From positions 1-41,905 of the forward strand of contig JAEOTJ010000080.1 in assembly GCA_016839905.1 (NCBI GenBank): a stretch of DNA of 41,905 nt. The letters run 5' to 3'. Both the position numbers and the translations under genes were made by a program. Below the pieces are notes generated by a model that saw only the letters and a list, made by a program, of their open reading frames with translations, had not been told where the DNA came from and made no database searches. The DNA is from Promethearchaeota archaeon. Lineage in GTDB: Archaea; Asgardarchaeota; Lokiarchaeia; Sigynarchaeales; SOKP01. Shown here piece after piece: positions 11,646 to 39,838 of this stretch (positions within the stretch are counted from its first letter, which is position 1; every line of letters starts with the position of its first letter).

Positions 11646-14600
11646 TTAGACTTTTTCTTTTAATTTTAGCCTTGGGGCCAGTCCTAAGCTCATCATTTCT
11701 TGAAGTAGCAACTTAAATGCATAAGAGCAAACAACCTTGGAAATTACAGTACCATCTCCACAGATTGGGCAAAAACGCTTATCTCGATTTCGATCATAAA
11801 CCGCTAATAGACCACATTTTTCACATATTAAAATAACCGTTCTATCAGATTCATCTAATAATCTTTCTTTTAATAATAATGCAGAACCATGTCCAACTAA
11901 GCAATCACGTTCCATTTCTCCAAATCTTAGACCTCCTTCACGAGCACGTCCTTCAGTCGGCTGTCTCGTTAATATTTGGACGGGGCCCCTCGCTCTAGCA
12001 TGAAGTTTATCCGCAACTAGGTGATATAATTTTTGATAATAAATAGGAGCACAATAAATACCAGCTTCATATTTCTCTCCAGTTATTCCGTTATACATTA
12101 TTTCTCTTCCATTAAATTCAAATCCTGCTTCCACCAACTTCTCTTGGAGCTTAGTTATATCTTTCCATTCAAAAGCAGTAGCATCTCCAAGTTTTCCTGT
12201 ATTACACGCAATTTTTCCGCTTATACCTTCAAATAATTGTCCTAAAGTCATTCTTGAAGGCATCGCATGTGGATTAACGATAATATCGGGTATCACGCCA
12301 GATGATGTAAAAGGCATATTTTCTTGAGGTTGAATGAGTCCAAGGACTCCCTTCTGCCCGTGTCGTGAAGAAAATTTATCTCCTAATTCTGGAATTCTTA
12401 GATCCCTTACTTTAATTTTTACTAGTTTATTTCCATCAACTGTTTCAGAAATAATTACTGTATCAACAATTCCTTTTTCATTATGTCTCATGTTCTTTGA
12501 TGTTTCCCGTCTATTTGGTTGTGTTAATTCAAATTCCTCGTAGGATTTAATAAATCGTGGAGGAGATGTACGACCGATTAACACATCACCCCCAAAAACT
12601 TCGGTTTCGGGCTCAATTATCCCATCCTCTTCGGAAAGTAATCGATAAGATTCCGCAGATTTGAATCCTCTTACTCCCCTCTCCGGGATTTCAAACTTAT
12701 CAATTTCTCCACCGGGATATTTACGTTCTTCAGCATCATATGTTCTAAAAAAATGACTTCGAGCAAGACCACGCTCAATTGAAGCCTTATTTATAATAAT
12801 TGCATCTTCAATATTAAATCCTTCAAAACTCATCATTCCTATGATAAAATTTTGACCAGCAGGACGTTTATTAAATCCAACAATTTCCATAGGGCTTGTT
12901 TTAACTAAAGGTTGTTGAGGATAGTGTAATGTATGTCCTCTGGTATCAAGTCTTAAATGCATGTTTGCTGAAAATAATCCTAATGCTTGTTTAACCATTC
13001 CCGCTTCATAAGTATTTCTTGGTGATTGATTATGCTCTGGAAATGGAATTATTGAAGCACAAATTCCTAAAATAGCCGCAGGAGATATTTCTAAGTGTGT
13101 ATGCTCGGATGTAATATCTTCTTCAAACATGGCTATATATGCATTCTCTTCTTCTTCAGCATCTAAATATTCAATTACTCCTTTTTCTATTAAATTAGAC
13201 CAAACATACTTTTTTTGTATTAATTTTTCAATATCTTCTTTACTAACTAATAATTTCTTGTTTTTTAATACAAATAAAGGTCTTGTAGCTCTTCCCGCAT
13301 CACAATTTATTTGCACTTCTTTAGAGTCGTGATAATAACCTATATTTATATGTTGCCCAATCTCTCCTTTTCTTCTCTTTTCTCTTAGTTGGCGAATAAA
13401 GGGATTATGTTTTTGATGAATTCCTATTAATTTACCATTTAAAAAGATTTTTACTTTATCTCCTTTAATATACTTTACTTCATTAATAGAAATTACTCCT
13501 AAATCTACTAAAATATTTTCAAGAATCCTTTCATCTGTACCAACAGAAATAATCGAAGCAAGGCCAAGGTTTTTAACTAATCCACAATTTGGCCCCTCAG
13601 GAGTTTCTGCGGGGCAAATCTTTCCCCATTGAGTGGGATGTAAATCTCTTGCTTCAAAATGTGGTTGACTTCTACTGAGTGGTGATATAACTCTTCTTAA
13701 ATGACTTAATGTTCCAACATGATTTGTTCTATTTAATAATTGACTTACACCTGCTTTTCCACCAACCCAATTTCCTGTTGCTAAAGCATGGCGAATCCTT
13801 TCTGTAATAACATCTGCTCTTACTGCAGTTTTTATATTTGGAGCTCGTCCTCGAACAGCCGTCCTTTCTAATTGATACTTTATATCTTTTACGAGATTTA
13901 AAAAGGCAACTCTAAATAATGATGTAAATAATTCTCCTGCTAGTTTTAATCGCTTATTAGCATAATGATCTTTATCATCAGGCTCTCTAAATCCTAATGC
14001 TAATTCCATAACTTTTTGAGCCATTTGGCCTAAATAATATGCTTTTTTAATTCGATCTTCCTCGTTATTTCCTATGTGTGGTAAAAGATATCTATCTAAA
14101 ACTTGAAGAGCTCTCCTAATACGATAATCTTTAGTTTGTCCAATTGCCACTCTTTTTCCTATATAATCAAGAGCATTATGTTGAGATTTCTCAGGATCTT
14201 TTAACACTTGAATTTCAGATGCAACATCTATTACAGGAATTAATTCCTTTTGGATTTCTGGGTTTTCTGAGATTGCTTCAAAGATTTCTTTATCAGAATG
14301 TAAACCTAAAGCTCGCATAAGAATTGCTAACGGAACTTTACCAGGAACTGAAGGAAATGAAACTCTCAAATTCCCATCCTTTTTTCGTTCAATGGTAACT
14401 GGTGCACGAAATCCACTTCTAGTTGAAAAAACCTTCGCTTGATGCGTGGCACTTGAACTTCTACTCGCTTCCTCCGCTAATATCCTATTTGGGGCTAAAT
14501 CTTCTTGAGTTACTAAGACCCTCTCAGTACCATTTATTATGAAATATCCTTCCCGCTTAACGAAAAAATCTCATTAAGTTCCGGGGTCAAGAGGGTCTTC

Positions 14601-15047
14601 TCCCCGATTAATCAATTCTTGTTCTGTTAAACTTTCCAATGGACACCTGCAACTCTTAAGCATTATCGGGATTTTCCCAATATAAATGTCAAGAGTTTCC
14701 TCAAATTCTTCTCTCTGAGTTCTCTCATCAATAGTAATAGGAGTCATCTCTAAAGTTATATCTGCTGCATAACTTAATTCCCTAATTCTTGCTTCAATCG
14801 GAGTAATCTCCATTGTAGCTCCATCTGCTTCCCTTACTTTTGGTGTCCCTACTTTGATTTTACTGAATTTAATTTTAAAACCAGGAATATCAGGTATTAC
14901 TTCCCCTGACTCGTTGACGATATCCTGCATTTCATGCTCAATAAAACTATTGTAAGAATCAAGATGTTGACGGACTAAACCCTTCTCATCAAAAAGACTC
15001 TTTAAAATTAACCATTTATCCTCATTTGATAAATATTCAGAACTCAA
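11646..15047 (-). CDS. rpoB: RNA polymerase subunit B (RpoB), unsplit, with a 30-nt intron
   Basis: Second-largest catalytic subunit of archaeal RNA polymerase. Exon 1 is 15047-14580 (TTG start, 156 codons, ending DPLDPG). Exon 2 is 14549-11646 (967 codons, beginning GYFIINGTERVLVTQEDLAPN). The product is 1123 aa, the usual length for unsplit archaeal B. The genomic frame has TAA and TGA stops in the 30 nt between exons; removing them restores the conserved DPGGYFIING. No ATG, GTG or TTG lies in frame between those stops and a TTG 68 codons further on, so exon 2 cannot be a separate full-length gene. Conserved blocks seen include AETPEGPNCGLVKNL, GDKFSSRHGQKG and the C-terminal zinc site (CEKCG, CPICG). 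It follows rpoH; the usual downstream rpoA genes are absent. Confidence 0.95.
14550..14579 (-). other. 30-nt bulge-helix-bulge intron in rpoB
   Basis: Read on the minus strand, exon 1 ends GACCCCGGA. The intron runs ACTTAATG, loop AGATTTTTT, CGTTAAG, CGGGAA. Exon 2 starts GGATATTTC. The fold has an inner helix CUUAAUG/CGUUAAG (7 bp, one G-U), then a 4-bp central helix CCCG/CGGG flanked by 3-nt bulges GAA (5' side) and AAG (3' side). The outer helix is weak (one C-G pair next to the bulge). Cutting after the second base of each bulge, the standard archaeal tRNA endonuclease rule, removes exactly 30 nt and joins GGA to GGA, giving DPG-GYF. Splicing itself is inferred; the fold and the restored protein are seen. 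Confidence 0.9.
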
Positions 15048-15432: not shown

Positions 15433-16080
15433 TTAAAAATTCAAGTTAAAAATCCAATAACCACTCCGTTTATAAAGAATTTCAATTTGGTTTTTTGGGA
15501 AAAGATCTTTTATACTTTTAAAAATAGAATCTGCACCCATCTTTTTCTTTATTACAAATTGAAAAAAACCATTCATAGTTAAATGATTTGGTATTTTTTC
15601 AATTAGATTAAGAAACTGCTTCTTACCTTGTCTTAAGGGCGGATTCATAAAAATCCCATCAAATTTTAATTTTTTTTTAATAATCGGTTCAAAATAATCA
15701 CCTGATAAAGCAAAAATTCGCTTTTTATAATTAGTTATATTGATTTTAATATTTTCTTTAGTACACCAAATGGCTCTTTTATTAATATCAATTAGAAATA
15801 CTTTACTTGCAGGTAATATATATCCTAAGACTATTCCTATAGGTCCATAACCACATCCTAAATCAAGGAAAATGCCTGGTTCTTGAGGGATTGTCATGTG
15901 CTCAATAAAAACTTTAGTTCCTAAATCAATTTTCTTAAAAGAAAAAACACCAGAAATAGTTTTAAAAACATAAAGATGTCTGCGTAAACTTTCCGAAACT
16001 GTATGAATCTTTAACTTAACATCGGGGAATTCTGAAAAATAATGGTTATTTTTTACCATCGTATTTAAAAATTTTTTCAT
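15433..16080 (-). CDS. RsmC-like SAM-dependent methyltransferase
   Basis: A class I methyltransferase of the small archaeal RsmC-like group, which probably modifies the exocyclic amine of a base in rRNA or tRNA. SAM motif I is LDLGCGYGPIG (residues 72-82), the acidic loop is LIDINKRA, and the catalytic motif NPPLRQGK is at 146-153. NPP(L/F/Y) motifs mark N-methylation of planar amines. I start at ATG 16080, which overlaps the TGA of cbf5 as ATGA; an upstream start at 16101 would add seven residues lying inside cbf5. Translational coupling with cbf5 supports a shared role in RNA modification and ribosome production. The exact substrate is not known. Confidence 0.86.
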   Translation of the reverse strand: MKKFLNTMVKNNHYFSEFPDVKLKIHTVSESLRRHLYVFKTISGVFSFKKIDLGTKVFIEHMTIPQEPGIFLDLGCGYGPIGIVLGYILPASKVFLIDINKRAIWCTKENIKINITNYKKRIFALSGDYFEPIIKKKLKFDGIFMNPPLRQGKKQFLNLIEKIPNHLTMNGFFQFVIKKKMGADSIFKSIKDLFPKNQIEILYKRSGYWIFNLNF

Positions 16081-17087
16081 TCCAATTTTTTTTCTTTCCA
16101 AGGGGGATATATACCTCGTTCCATAAAAATCTTGCTCGTTTTTACCATTATTCCTGATTTGGCTTTATATATCTGCATTGCATCCTTGTTAGCTATTCCA
16201 AATCCAATTAGTTCTTTTTTTAGCGTCATTAATGAAACTAACTTTCCAGTTTTTATCCTAGCATCTATGAACATTATACCAGCAGCAGCTAAAGCAGCTC
16301 CATGACAAATAGCATCAACAGCAGTGTCTCTGATGAAAATCTTTGGTAAATGCTCAACCATTTTTTCCATTGGGAATATCATTTTCCTTAAATACTTTTC
16401 TTCTCCTTCCTCTTGATAAATTATATAAGCATCTTTTAAATCTTGAAGAGTAGTTAAATTATCAACTTCTTTAAAATTTCCTACTCGAGTTCTCCGTAAT
16501 TCAAGCATATGAGCACCAGAACAAAGAGCTTCTCCAATATCATAACATAATTTTCTTATATAAGTTCCAGCTTCACATCCTACTCTGAATAATATATGAT
16601 GATTATTTATTTCGAGCAACCTAATGTAGTATACTTCTCTTACTCTTAATCTCCTAGAAACTGATGATTTTATTGGGGGTCTTTGGTTTAGCTTTCCGGT
16701 AAATATTCTAAAAACGCTCTCTATTTTCTTCCGTGATTCTGGAGAATGTAAATACATTACACAAATATACTCTTTTCCTGCATTTAAAAGTGCAGATAAA
16801 ACTTTCGTTGCTTTTCCTAACGCACATGGTAAAACACCCGTAACTTTTGGGTCTAATGTACCTCCATGGCCAACATTTTGTATTCCTAAAATTTTTCTTA
16901 CCCAAGATGCTACTTCATGACTTGTCGGACCTCTAACTTTATCTAAATTTATCACGCCATATTGAAGTAATGTTTCTATATTCCTTTTACTTGGTTCACA
17001 TCCATAAGCAGGATTTGGAATTTCCTGGGATTTTACTAATAATTGCTCTGGTTCATCAGAAGGAAGCTTTAATTCTGTATTTTCCAT
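16077..17087 (-). CDS. cbf5: tRNA/rRNA pseudouridine synthase Cbf5 (H/ACA RNP catalytic subunit)
   Basis: Cbf5 (dyskerin homologue) makes pseudouridine in rRNA with guide RNAs and partners Nop10, Gar1 and L7Ae. The 336-aa product has the TruB-type catalytic domain with GGTLDPKVTGVLP, where D79 is the nucleophile. Other family blocks are KVRGPTSHEVASWVRKI, AGTYIRKLCYDIG and LELRRTRVG. The PUA domain spans about 255-330 (DTAVDAICHGAALAAAGI ... IGFGIANKD). In Crenarchaeota this gene is the classic host of a BHB mRNA intron; here it reads through uninterrupted. It overlaps the downstream RsmC-like gene. Confidence 0.95.
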   Translation of the reverse strand: MENTELKLPSDEPEQLLVKSQEIPNPAYGCEPSKRNIETLLQYGVINLDKVRGPTSHEVASWVRKILGIQNVGHGGTLDPKVTGVLPCALGKATKVLSALLNAGKEYICVMYLHSPESRKKIESVFRIFTGKLNQRPPIKSSVSRRLRVREVYYIRLLEINNHHILFRVGCEAGTYIRKLCYDIGEALCSGAHMLELRRTRVGNFKEVDNLTTLQDLKDAYIIYQEEGEEKYLRKMIFPMEKMVEHLPKIFIRDTAVDAICHGAALAAAGIMFIDARIKTGKLVSLMTLKKELIGFGIANKDAMQIYKAKSGIMVKTSKIFMERGIYPPWKEKKLE

Positions 17088-18551: not shown

Positions 18552-18653
18552 GCCTCTGTGGCTTAGTGGTAGAGCTATTGATTCGTAATCAAATAATCGA
18601 TTAATTCAGTCGATCAGACGACTCGGTCGGGGGTTCAATTCCCCCTAGAGGCT
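18552..18653 (+). tRNA. tRNA-Thr(CGU) with a ~30-nt intron near the 3' side of the anticodon stem
   Basis: Acceptor GCCTCTG/TAGAGGC (one G-U), discriminator T, D-arm GCTT-AGTGGTA-GAGC, anticodon stem-loop TTGA-TTCGTAA-TCAA (anticodon CGU), T-arm GGGGG-TTCAATT-CCCCC. No CCA is encoded. Between the anticodon stem and the variable bases CGGTC there are about 30 extra nt (about 18591-18620) containing a hairpin ATCGA/TCGAT. Removal gives a normal 72-nt tRNA in which T43 pairs with A27. The exact cut sites are not certain because no perfect 4-bp central helix was found by eye. The gene ends 4 bp before the stop codon of the oppositely oriented roadblock-GTPase gene. Confidence 0.9.
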
Positions 18654-33998: not shown

Positions 33999-34763
33999 TT
34001 ATTTAATTTCTATAAATTTTAATAATCCTAATCGGTCTAAACTCTCAATTATTTTCTCAACATCAGTTTCTGGAAGCCCTGCTTCTTCGGCAATATCCGC
34101 AGCAGTGTGGAACCCATCTGCTAAATGGGCAATTTTATATTGTTGCTCATTTATAATTCCTTGGTTGATTACTTGCTTTGGAAGTCGCTTTGTCGTCCAT
34201 TCTGGTTTTTTATCTGAGACTTGTCTTAGGTCATCTTCACTAAGGATAAGCCCTTTTTTTGCAATCTTTGCTTGAGATTTAATAAAATCCTTCTTATATA
34301 TTTTTAAAATTGGTAATTTTATTGGAAATTCCGCAACTTTTCCATCTTTTAAAATTTCATCAATAATTTCATCAAAACCTTTGAAAATCCTAATATCCCC
34401 AGACCAAGATTCAATTATATCACCATGTCGTTCAATGAATTTATCAATAATATCACTTAAAGCTTTATGTGTAACTTTTGAATCATCATTTTTATCAGCT
34501 GCGGCAGTTAATAATATGCCCCCCTTAAAGACTAACATCAGATAAAATATCTGCATGTATTCACTAATAGATATGCATTATCTATTATCTATGACTTTAA
34601 GTTCTCCAGAACCTTTGGAGAACTCAACACTAAAGTCTTTAAGGGCAGTAAGAAATCCTGAAACTAAATCTTGATTAAATTCTATTGATCCATATTTCCT
34701 ATGAATTAAGCAAATACCCGTTGTTTGATGAATAAGATATACATTGTGTAAGATGCTCAACAC
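33999..34763 (-). CDS. Longin-domain protein with C-terminal winged helix, containing a 30-nt intron
   Basis: Exon 1 is 34763-34589 and exon 2 is 34558-33999; joined they give 244 aa. The N-terminal longin-like domain reads MLSILHNVYLIHQTTGICLI, FLTALKDFSVEF, then GELKVIDMQIFYLM across the junction and ILLTAAADKNDD, followed by the helix ALSDIIDKFIERHGD. The C-terminal 60 residues look like a winged helix (IAHLADGFHTAADIAEEAG, ETDVEKIIESLDRLGLL). In the unspliced genome a TAA stop interrupts the frame after GELKVIDNR, leaving fragments of 61 and 185 codons, neither a complete domain. Longin domains bind small GTPases and membranes in eukaryotic traffic. The fold call is moderate; the split and its repair are clear. 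Confidence 0.8.
34559..34588 (-). other. 30-nt bulge-helix-bulge intron in the longin gene
   Basis: Minus strand: exon 1 ends GTCATAG. The intron is A, TAATAGATA, loop ATGCA, TATCTATTA, GTGA, AT. Exon 2 starts ACATGCAG. The inner helix is 9 perfect base pairs. The central helix TCAT/GTGA is 4 bp (one G-U), with bulges AGA and ATA. Cuts after the second base of each bulge remove exactly 30 nt, delete the TAA stop, and give GTC ATA GAC ATG CAG, i.e. V-I-D-M-Q. The outer helix is weak, as in the rpoB intron (one G-C pair, then an A-A mismatch). Confidence 0.88.
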
Positions 34764-38755: not shown

Positions 38756-39829
38756 TTGAAAATTCTTGAGGAAAATAAAAAATCAGGAGAAATAACTATA
38801 AAGATAGATAATCTTAATGATTTATGGTCATTATATAATATTATTTCTAAAAATGATCAAGTTTCAGCTCGAACTCAAAGAAGGGTGATAATAAGAGAAG
38901 GAACTAAAGGAGAACGCAAAAATATGAAATTAAAATTAAATGTTGATGATGTATCCTTCCATGAATTTTCAAATAGATTAAGAGTTAAAGGGACCATTTT
39001 AGAAGGCCCCGAGGATTTTGTTAGTTTTGGTACTTATCATACATTTAATATTGAACCAGGGCAAGTAATCCATATTATTAAAACTAAATGGTTAAAGCAC
39101 GAAAAAAAGAGACTTACAGAAGCTTCAAAGTTCGAGTCAAACTACATAATGTTCTTTATTGCAATTGAAACAGGCTTAGCAACTCTTGCAATTATAACAA
39201 ATTTTAGTCATAAAAGAATCACTGTCATAAAAACTCACATACCTGGAAAGAGATATGCTCAAGCTAATAGAAATAAAGCGTTAAATGAATTCTTTGACAA
39301 TATTGTAAAAGTAATTGAAGAAAATATAAAACAGACTGAAATTAATTCTATCATTGTCTGTGGTCCTGGAAATACAAGGAACCACTTAATAAAACATATT
39401 AAAGAAAATTATAATCCTGATTACTATTCTAAAATAAAAAGTATCCACGCAAGTTCAGGAACAGAAAGTGCTATTTTAGAAACATTAAAATCTAAAGAAT
39501 TAACTTTGATAAAAAGAAATGTAAAGGTACTGGAAGAGACAGAAAAAATCGAAGAGATTTTTACACTTTTAAGTACTGATGATGATCTTATTGCCATTGG
39601 ATTTGACGAAATTACTGGTGGTGCTGAAAGAGGAGCAATCAAGGATCTATTCGTTGCGGATATTATGATTAGAGGAACTTCAAAAGAACAAAAGCTTAGA
39701 ATAGAGGATATCATAATCAATGTAGAGAAAGCTGGAGGTAAAGTACACATTTTAAGTAGTGAACACCCCACAGGTCAACAAATCATCGATTTGGGATCGC
39801 TAATTGGAATTTTAAGATATAAATTTTAA
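38756..39829 (+). CDS. pelA: Pelota (Dom34) mRNA surveillance factor
   Basis: Archaeal Pelota rescues stalled ribosomes with aEF1A and ABCE1, the archaeal no-go/non-stop decay pathway. The 357-aa product starts with the Sm-like domain (GEITIKIDNLNDLWSLYNII, VSARTQRRVIIREGTKGE, KGTILEGPEDFVSFGTYHTF). The central domain has GPGNTRNHLIKHIK, and the C-terminal domain has LIAIGFDEITGGAERGAIKDLFVAD and VHILSSEHPTGQQI. The GGQ motif of true release factors is absent, as expected. Start is TTG, with a GGAG about 12 nt upstream. The length is normal. Confidence 0.96.
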   Translation: MKILEENKKSGEITIKIDNLNDLWSLYNIISKNDQVSARTQRRVIIREGTKGERKNMKLKLNVDDVSFHEFSNRLRVKGTILEGPEDFVSFGTYHTFNIEPGQVIHIIKTKWLKHEKKRLTEASKFESNYIMFFIAIETGLATLAIITNFSHKRITVIKTHIPGKRYAQANRNKALNEFFDNIVKVIEENIKQTEINSIIVCGPGNTRNHLIKHIKENYNPDYYSKIKSIHASSGTESAILETLKSKELTLIKRNVKVLEETEKIEEIFTLLSTDDDLIAIGFDEITGGAERGAIKDLFVADIMIRGTSKEQKLRIEDIIINVEKAGGKVHILSSEHPTGQQIIDLGSLIGILRYKF

Positions 39830-39838
39830 ATTAAAAAA

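Follow-up and report, generated by a model that had tools for sequence, protein, structure and literature searches.

The window, the whole 41,905-nt stretch of DNA analysed here, carries on its minus strand a gene for RNA polymerase subunit B (rpoB, 15047..11646) whose reading frame is broken by a 30-nt insert, as well as a small gene with an insert of the same length (Table 1). The rpoB frame is open as far as GAC CCC GGA, runs into ACT TAA TGA and resumes at GGA TAT TTC; the insert between these flanks, read from 14579 to 14550, is ACTTAATGAGATTTTTTCGTTAAGCGGGAA. When it is deleted, a single 1123-aa RpoB frame with zero internal stops is obtained, which bears out the claims of a preliminary description of this DNA that the stops split the frame exactly between DPG and GYF and that excision leaves no missing or extra residue. 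The Pfam Rpb2_1 match is divided between two ORFs in the unspliced sequence (2.9e-35 and 6.5e-14) and becomes one match of 1.2e-57 in the N-terminal 423 aa of the spliced protein. The nearest database cluster to RpoB is an uninterrupted 1123-aa protein with 802 member sequences. The contig is Lokiarchaeial, the identity of its RpoB exon 2 to Lokiarchaeota MAGs reaching 94%. An intein is excluded as a class, the insert being 30 nt long with stop codons and without an in-frame splicing domain.

Table 1. Features of the rpoB gene and the small gene, in positions of the window
Feature	Position	Strand	Basis or description
rpoB exon 1	14580..15047	-	156 codons, TTG start at 15047; Pfam RNA_pol_Rpb2_1 positions 1-138
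Predicted 30-nt BHB intron of rpoB	14550..14579	-	between DPG and GYF; contains TAA and TGA
rpoB exon 2	11646..14549	-	967 codons and stop
Central helix H, exon strand CCCG	14582..14585	-	BHB fit
Central helix H, intron strand CGGG	14552..14555	-	BHB fit
5' bulge GA^A, predicted 5' cut site	14579..14581	-	cut rule as given in PMC2738675
3' bulge AA^G, predicted 3' cut site	14549..14551	-	BHB fit
Inner helix (up to 10 bp) and 3-nt loop	14556..14578	-	fold
Exonic arm 1 of predicted 11-bp exon-exon outer helix	14589..14599	-	131-nt fold; pairs with 14515-14525
Exonic arm 2 of predicted outer helix	14515..14525	-	131-nt fold
Small gene exon 1	34589..34763	-	about 245 aa spliced, approximate start
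Predicted second 30-nt BHB intron	34559..34588	-	between GELKVI and DMQ; H TCAT/GTGA, bulges AG^A and AT^A, 9-bp inner helix
Small gene exon 2	33999..34558	-	spliced frame

RpoB might also be made as two separate polypeptides from a split gene, and partial RpoB ORFs resembling B''/B' splits do occur in some other Asgard genomes. Those ORFs end near residues 500-650, however, and not at 156, the break in the window falls inside the conserved DPGGYF stretch, and in exon 2 the first ATG, GTG or TTG past the stop lies at 14369, 67 codons in. The chance that the gene is split is virtually negligible, in agreement with the preliminary description, which had called a split gene unlikely; the start-free stretch on which it relied stands, although it spans 67 codons and not the 68 that it had counted.

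Predicted bulge-helix-bulge structure of the rpoB insert

The canonical form of archaeal introns, the bulge-helix-bulge (BHB), consists of 4 bp and two 3-nt bulges (PMC4090602), and the cut separates the second bulge residue from the third (PMC2738675). Among the cuts that preserve the RpoB protein, one register has the full BHB, CCCG-GA^A ... CGGG-AA^G leading into a long inner helix, and the predicted cuts after the second bulge base fall exactly on the protein boundary. A nucleotide-equivalent placement of the insert at 14580..14551 is also possible, but the BHB forms only with 14579..14550. The CCCG/CGGG central helix, the GAA and AAG bulges and the CUUAAUG/CGUUAAG inner helix were all found as the preliminary description had stated; its cut rule, giving DPG-GYF, holds, and its reading of the insert as a BHB intron is supported by this fit together with the inserts of related genomes. 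When the insert was shuffled 4000 times at the mononucleotide level, a strict BHB at an allowed boundary appeared once. The strong evidence is comparative; in free folding, the sequence by itself is no more than moderately unusual (z of -2.54, -1.83, -2.22 and -0.67 for 40, 60, 131 and 91 nt, respectively), which is weaker evidence; the 91-nt minimum free energy fold differs from the BHB, and the outer helix immediately beside the central helix (H) is weak.

The insert is very probably a BHB intron, predicted to be removed from the mRNA by the tRNA-splicing endonuclease EndA, after which RtcB would probably seal the exons into a normal RpoB message. The transcript would fold into the BHB, EndA would cleave after the second base of each bulge, and the exons would be joined, probably by RtcB, with release of the 30-nt piece; that cleavage and ligation take place in vivo we infer from the anatomy of the insert and from the known behaviour of EndA. 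An unspliced rpoB message would stop at codon 158, and unspliced messages of this type would generally end early, either at a stop within the intron or via a frameshift.

The rpoB site in related genomes

The rpoB survey covered 83 genomes of the class, 77 of them with rpoB. A comparison of RpoB and DNA from related genomes, as had been proposed in the preliminary description, revealed an insert at this site in G051 and found 76 of 80 related loci uninterrupted at the site, the remaining four having no motif match. In G051, a 31-nt, frame-shifting insert lies at the same nucleotide as in the window and forms CCTG-GA^A ... CAGG-AA^G; its sequence differs from that of the window while the pairing is kept, with a compensated pair between CCCG/CGGG in the window and CCTG/CAGG in G051. 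G040 and G041 carry 32-nt inserts at a second rpoB site, VPD-IPGF (hyphens in protein motifs mark the insert), which form CCTG-AT^A ... CAGG-AA^A with a complete 4-bp H and a bulged inner helix.

Of 39 exon-1 matches in the protein database, 26 were examined, and four of these end in DPG followed by T (P0121, P0122, P0124 and P0125), with the tails TCRTMILQAG.., TEIGLL. (twice) and TK after DPG. These endings probably arise from reading into an insert, suggesting that further rpoB carriers exist. Across the phylum, rpoB was found in 208 of 227 genomes, 30 flagged genomes were searched again and 7 of their loci were aligned; the other broken genes among the matches listed were set aside as inteins, B''/B'-like partial ORFs, contig ends and a simple frameshift (G179).

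Several further features of RpoB were observed in these searches. In the Asgard genomes G022, G177, G178, G084, G113 and G114 (L150-L155), ORFs of about 1620-1651 aa are interrupted at around residue 470, probably by inteins, and P0051 and similar proteins carry an additional PF14890 domain. One MAG, G001, contains two differing RpoB genes (contigs C151 and C128) and is probably a mixture of species.

A second predicted intron in the window

The window was scanned for strict BHBs that, when removed, leave a restored ORF, and four matches were obtained: rpoB, 34588..34559 in the small gene, 39810-39836 on the plus strand and 16364-16331 on the minus strand, inside cbf5. No support was found for the latter two, which were rejected. 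The small-gene intron was discovered through the BHB scan itself. Once it is removed, the joined protein (GELKVIDMQ) agrees with that of six relatives in which the gene is uninterrupted. In G051, the site is likewise occupied by a 30-nt BHB insert, whose core, TAGATA...TATCTATTA, is related to that of the window intron. Inserts at this site are also present in G044, G014, G073 and G043; in G069 the gene reaches the contig end and an insert was not found. The domain matches of the small gene, longin-like and winged-helix, are weak and below cut-offs.

Inserts across genes and genomes

Searches of the same 83 genomes gave matches in 77 for rpoB, 77 for rpoA1, 82 for EF-2, 83 for EF-1alpha, 83 for the small gene and 81 for DP2, and the broken copies flagged in the survey lists were retrieved and tested. 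At least 41 inserts were found at 14 sites in five genes (rpoB, rpoA1, EF-2, EF-1alpha and the small gene), in at least 26 of the 83 genomes and in the window; 39 of the 41 are 29-33 nt long and two are longer. Coding BHB inserts are a recurrent class in related species and not a single case. Four lie in rpoB, at two sites; seven in rpoA1 (FGH-IEL five times and around DEDGL-PIPSG twice); at least 16 in EF-2 (TDSD-DEEQ nine times, the adjoining TD-SDDEEQ twice, ITAH-IDHG three times, and DHG-KTT and DTPGH-VDF once each, the last in an EF-2-type gene of G081); at least eight in EF-1alpha (DHG-K five times, then GHAD-F, LV-IIGH and GH-IDHG); and at least six in the small gene. The DHG-K site is common to EF-2 and EF-1alpha.

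A strict BHB with an inner helix is formed by 33 of the 41 inserts, and a 4-bp H by 37, including the two at the second rpoB site. Mononucleotide shuffles predict 0.035 strict BHBs among the first 29 inserts, of which 23 have one; with the 3' bulge displaced by 1-4 nt, the number falls to 0-2. All of the next 12 have a 4-bp H at the protein-restoring cut, 10 of them with a strict BHB. For the small-gene inserts, the G081 insert and the second rpoA1 insert of G044, the BHB cut was taken first and the allowed cuts were listed afterwards. The inner helices of the EF-2 and small-gene introns vary in sequence yet still pair. The four inserts lacking a full 4-bp H are those in rpoA1 of G053 (65 nt), G043 (50 nt), and G008 and G044 (three of four pairs), and G008 is counted as a carrier solely via its imperfect insert. 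The BHB fit failed for the G053 and G043 inserts (L189 and L190), which share their site with three strict BHB introns and have in common a 3' part, CATTTCGA..CC.TAGT, with a small covarying hairpin (CTTC/GAAG and CCTC/GAGG).

Removal at the RNA level by an enzyme other than EndA would accommodate these 65- and 50-nt inserts without a BHB, and the action of EndA is itself inferred; it is nevertheless very unlikely, given that the 33 strict inserts conform in every respect to the rule for EndA (4 bp, 3-nt bulges and a cut after base 2). An origin in sequencing, assembly or binning errors, or in inactivated genes, has in its favour that the related genomes are mostly metagenome-assembled according to their record titles and that a plain frameshift does exist in the set, in DP2 of G059. 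This reading is hardly tenable for inserts that recur at 14 sites in this many genomes from several submissions, with a near-constant length, a restored frame and a mostly strict BHB, in genes that are otherwise open on both sides where read.

Translational bypassing, in which the ribosome would skip the insert without RNA splicing, is known from phage T4 gene 60 and from the byps of yeast mitochondria, and requires that the take-off and landing codons match. The rpoB insert has some of this appearance, being a short hairpin that contains an early stop and is flanked, in the window, by a GGA codon on either side. However, the triplet before the resume point is mismatched in the four cases compared (GGA/GAA in the window, GAT/AAA in EF-2 of G003, and CAT/TAA both at site 2 of EF-2 in G052 and in rpoA1 of G055), and bypassing has no need of exon-intron pairing with two in-register 3-nt bulges. 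We regard bypassing as highly improbable and favour excision of the insert as a BHB intron.

The surveys flag stops and frame breaks, and so open in-frame inserts may be missed. In the protein database, 18 of the 30 EF-2 exon-1 matches examined (36 in all) cease to follow the conserved sequence at TD or TDSD; P0176, among these 18, is G003 itself. DP2, matched in 81 of the 83 genomes, showed no short BHB insert but intein-like or variable pieces and the one frameshift. No intron was found in cbf5 of 21 relatives, all 21 matching in one piece at near full length; the stops reported were at the C-terminal end in G007 and, in G003, in an alignment open to residue 334 of 336. The cbf5 of the window (16077-17087, minus strand), three genes upstream of rpoB, is uninterrupted. 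In BHB scans, matches were no more numerous than in decoy registers (12 against 5-15 in 396 kb of G003 and 10 against 6-19 in 12 syntenic loci), and the introns therefore seem to be few and concentrated in very conserved genes. A phylum-wide search of EF-2 (227 genomes) showed no stop outside the class among the matches listed. Separately, G075 (L216) and G040 (L217) have a divergent EF-2 paralogue, about 33% identical to the main EF-2; in that of G075 an internal stop codon replaces a residue, with no insert, which may reflect recoding, error or decay. For the stop reported in that of G040, no position was found.

Candidate splicing machinery

EndA (PF01974) has matches in 82 of the 83 related genomes, with two or more in 68, and RtcB was found in 17 of the 19 carriers checked, G040 and G059 having no match. 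One EndA paralogue, examined in G051 and G040, can be aligned along most of its length to PDB 3p1z_B, which we take to be the A. pernix EndA, the catalytic-His stretch included. The other paralogue lacks the catalytic His in an alignment to 1a79, presumably the EndA of M. jannaschii. The two paralogues would correspond to alpha and beta subunits of a heterotetramer. The first has the loop GFFGSPLGIHKPR where 3p1z_B has GYYGQPLDVEKPR (the G051 copy was searched), and on our reading of the alignment this may be the Crenarchaea-specific loop of EndA named in PMC12397907. EndA of the alpha/beta type has been described as accepting broader substrates (PMC7714728), and circular rRNA in metatranscriptomes is reported to support EndA and RtcB activity in Asgard archaea (PMC12918454).

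Introns in tRNA genes are described as very common in three Asgard genomes (PMC11291895). On the plus strand of the window, a 102-nt tRNA gene lies at 18552-18653 (Rfam tRNA, 54.4 bits; ARAGORN reported none), whose aligned anticodon loop reads CGU (Thr) and which has approximately 30 extra nt, put in the variable region by Rfam; a strict BHB was sought at these extra nt and was not found.

Distribution history and exon pairing

On a phylogenetic tree of RpoB, the window and G051 are not sisters, and a tree in which they are forced together is rejected (p-AU 0.005). A tree of EF-2 was built from 36 genes, comprising 14 carriers of an intron at any EF-2 site and 22 non-carriers, a selection of those available. 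Nine state changes are needed on this tree to account for the nine TDSD-DEEQ carriers, and eight on the RpoB tree. The EF-2 intron of G053 is identical at 30 of 30 positions to those of G049 and G059, while its gene is 75% identical to theirs and fourfold-degenerate sites agree at just 43% and 41%. Strong constraint on the intron may account for this identity, but other pairs of TDSD-DEEQ introns, the close relatives G049 and G059 apart, differ at 2-8 of 30 positions. The simplest reading of the distribution is that the introns were repeatedly gained and lost, and that some were transferred as introns, spreading between species by themselves.

Codons beside the EF-2 intron are shared more among carriers than among non-carriers. 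Co-conversion of these flanking exons was considered as proof of mobility and was rejected, given that the shared stretch also forms the outer helix and selection on structure explains the sharing equally well. At the first rpoB site, the exon-exon outer pairing of the window ranks 1 and that of G051 ranks 3 of 68, whereas at the second there is no outer-helix effect (ranks 8 and 20 of 68). At the first EF-2 site, the outer pairing is stronger in carriers (11 versus 19 genes, p 1.7e-4); from the 36 genes, three without the motif and three with introns at other EF-2 sites were omitted, and p is 3.3e-4 when the latter three are counted as non-carriers.

On balance, we lean towards a broader interpretation, in which Lokiarchaeia would harbour a family of self-jumping, protein-spliced mini-introns of 30 nt, with the best-conserved codons of RNA polymerase and of the translation GTPases (P-loop, switch and zinc-site motifs) as their targets. 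Gene expression would then routinely and necessarily involve the tRNA machinery splicing pre-mRNAs, and the outer stem would need tuned exon codons.

Implications and comparison with known systems

The carriers belong to the Lokiarchaeia, relatives of the ancestors of eukaryotic cells. If the predicted splicing is true, the expression of Asgard RNA polymerase and elongation factors depends on mRNA splicing by the tRNA endonuclease, and the gain, loss and mobility of introns, as well as splicing alongside coupled transcription-translation, become testable in archaea. The truncated proteins in the database suggest that automatic annotation would then cut rpoB and EF-2 short in some of the publicly available Lokiarchaeial data. 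A 2023 hypothesis on the nucleus stated that evidence of eukaryotic-like introns is lacking for protein-coding RNAs of archaea (PMC10732040). Within titles and the beginnings of abstracts, bioRxiv itself and most subscription journals being outside this scope, no BHB introns in Asgard coding genes were recognised.

In Crenarchaeota, a pre-mRNA intron of cbf5 was reportedly described by Watanabe in 2002. The cbf5 intron is of the BHB type, lies in coding mRNA and is cut by EndA between the second and third bulge residues (Yokobori 2009, PMC2738675); it is present in Sulfolobales and Desulfurococcales, with a mostly unconventional BHB, and spliced mRNA has been reported (PMC2738675). A 2020 paper names this crenarchaeal intron as the only further BHB intron reported (PMC7714728), and the statement of the preliminary description that archaeal mRNA introns are known mainly from cbf5 agrees with it. 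The inserts described here resemble the cbf5 intron in being BHBs in coding mRNA with the same cut position and in their lineage-specific presence and absence, but differ from it in occupying 14 sites in five Asgard genes, including those for RNA polymerase and translation GTPases, and in having a mostly canonical BHB and a length of 29-33 nt. The 5' UTR of the HVO_1309 mRNA of Haloferax volcanii also contains a BHB (PMC7714728); like the rpoB insert, for which this is predicted, it is an mRNA substrate of EndA, whereas the Asgard inserts lie inside the coding frame.

The BHB introns of archaeal tRNA and rRNA have the same motif and the same predicted enzymes, but in the inserts described here the host is a coding message, and excision must restore the reading frame. 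Bypass elements such as those of T4 gene 60 and the mitochondrial byps are likewise short, hairpin-forming coding inserts that contain stops, yet here the exon pairs with the insert and the four cases compared have no matching take-off and landing codons. This kind of intron is already known; the novelty lies in the lineage and the genes that host it, in how many sites it occupies and in a patchy distribution that looks mobile.
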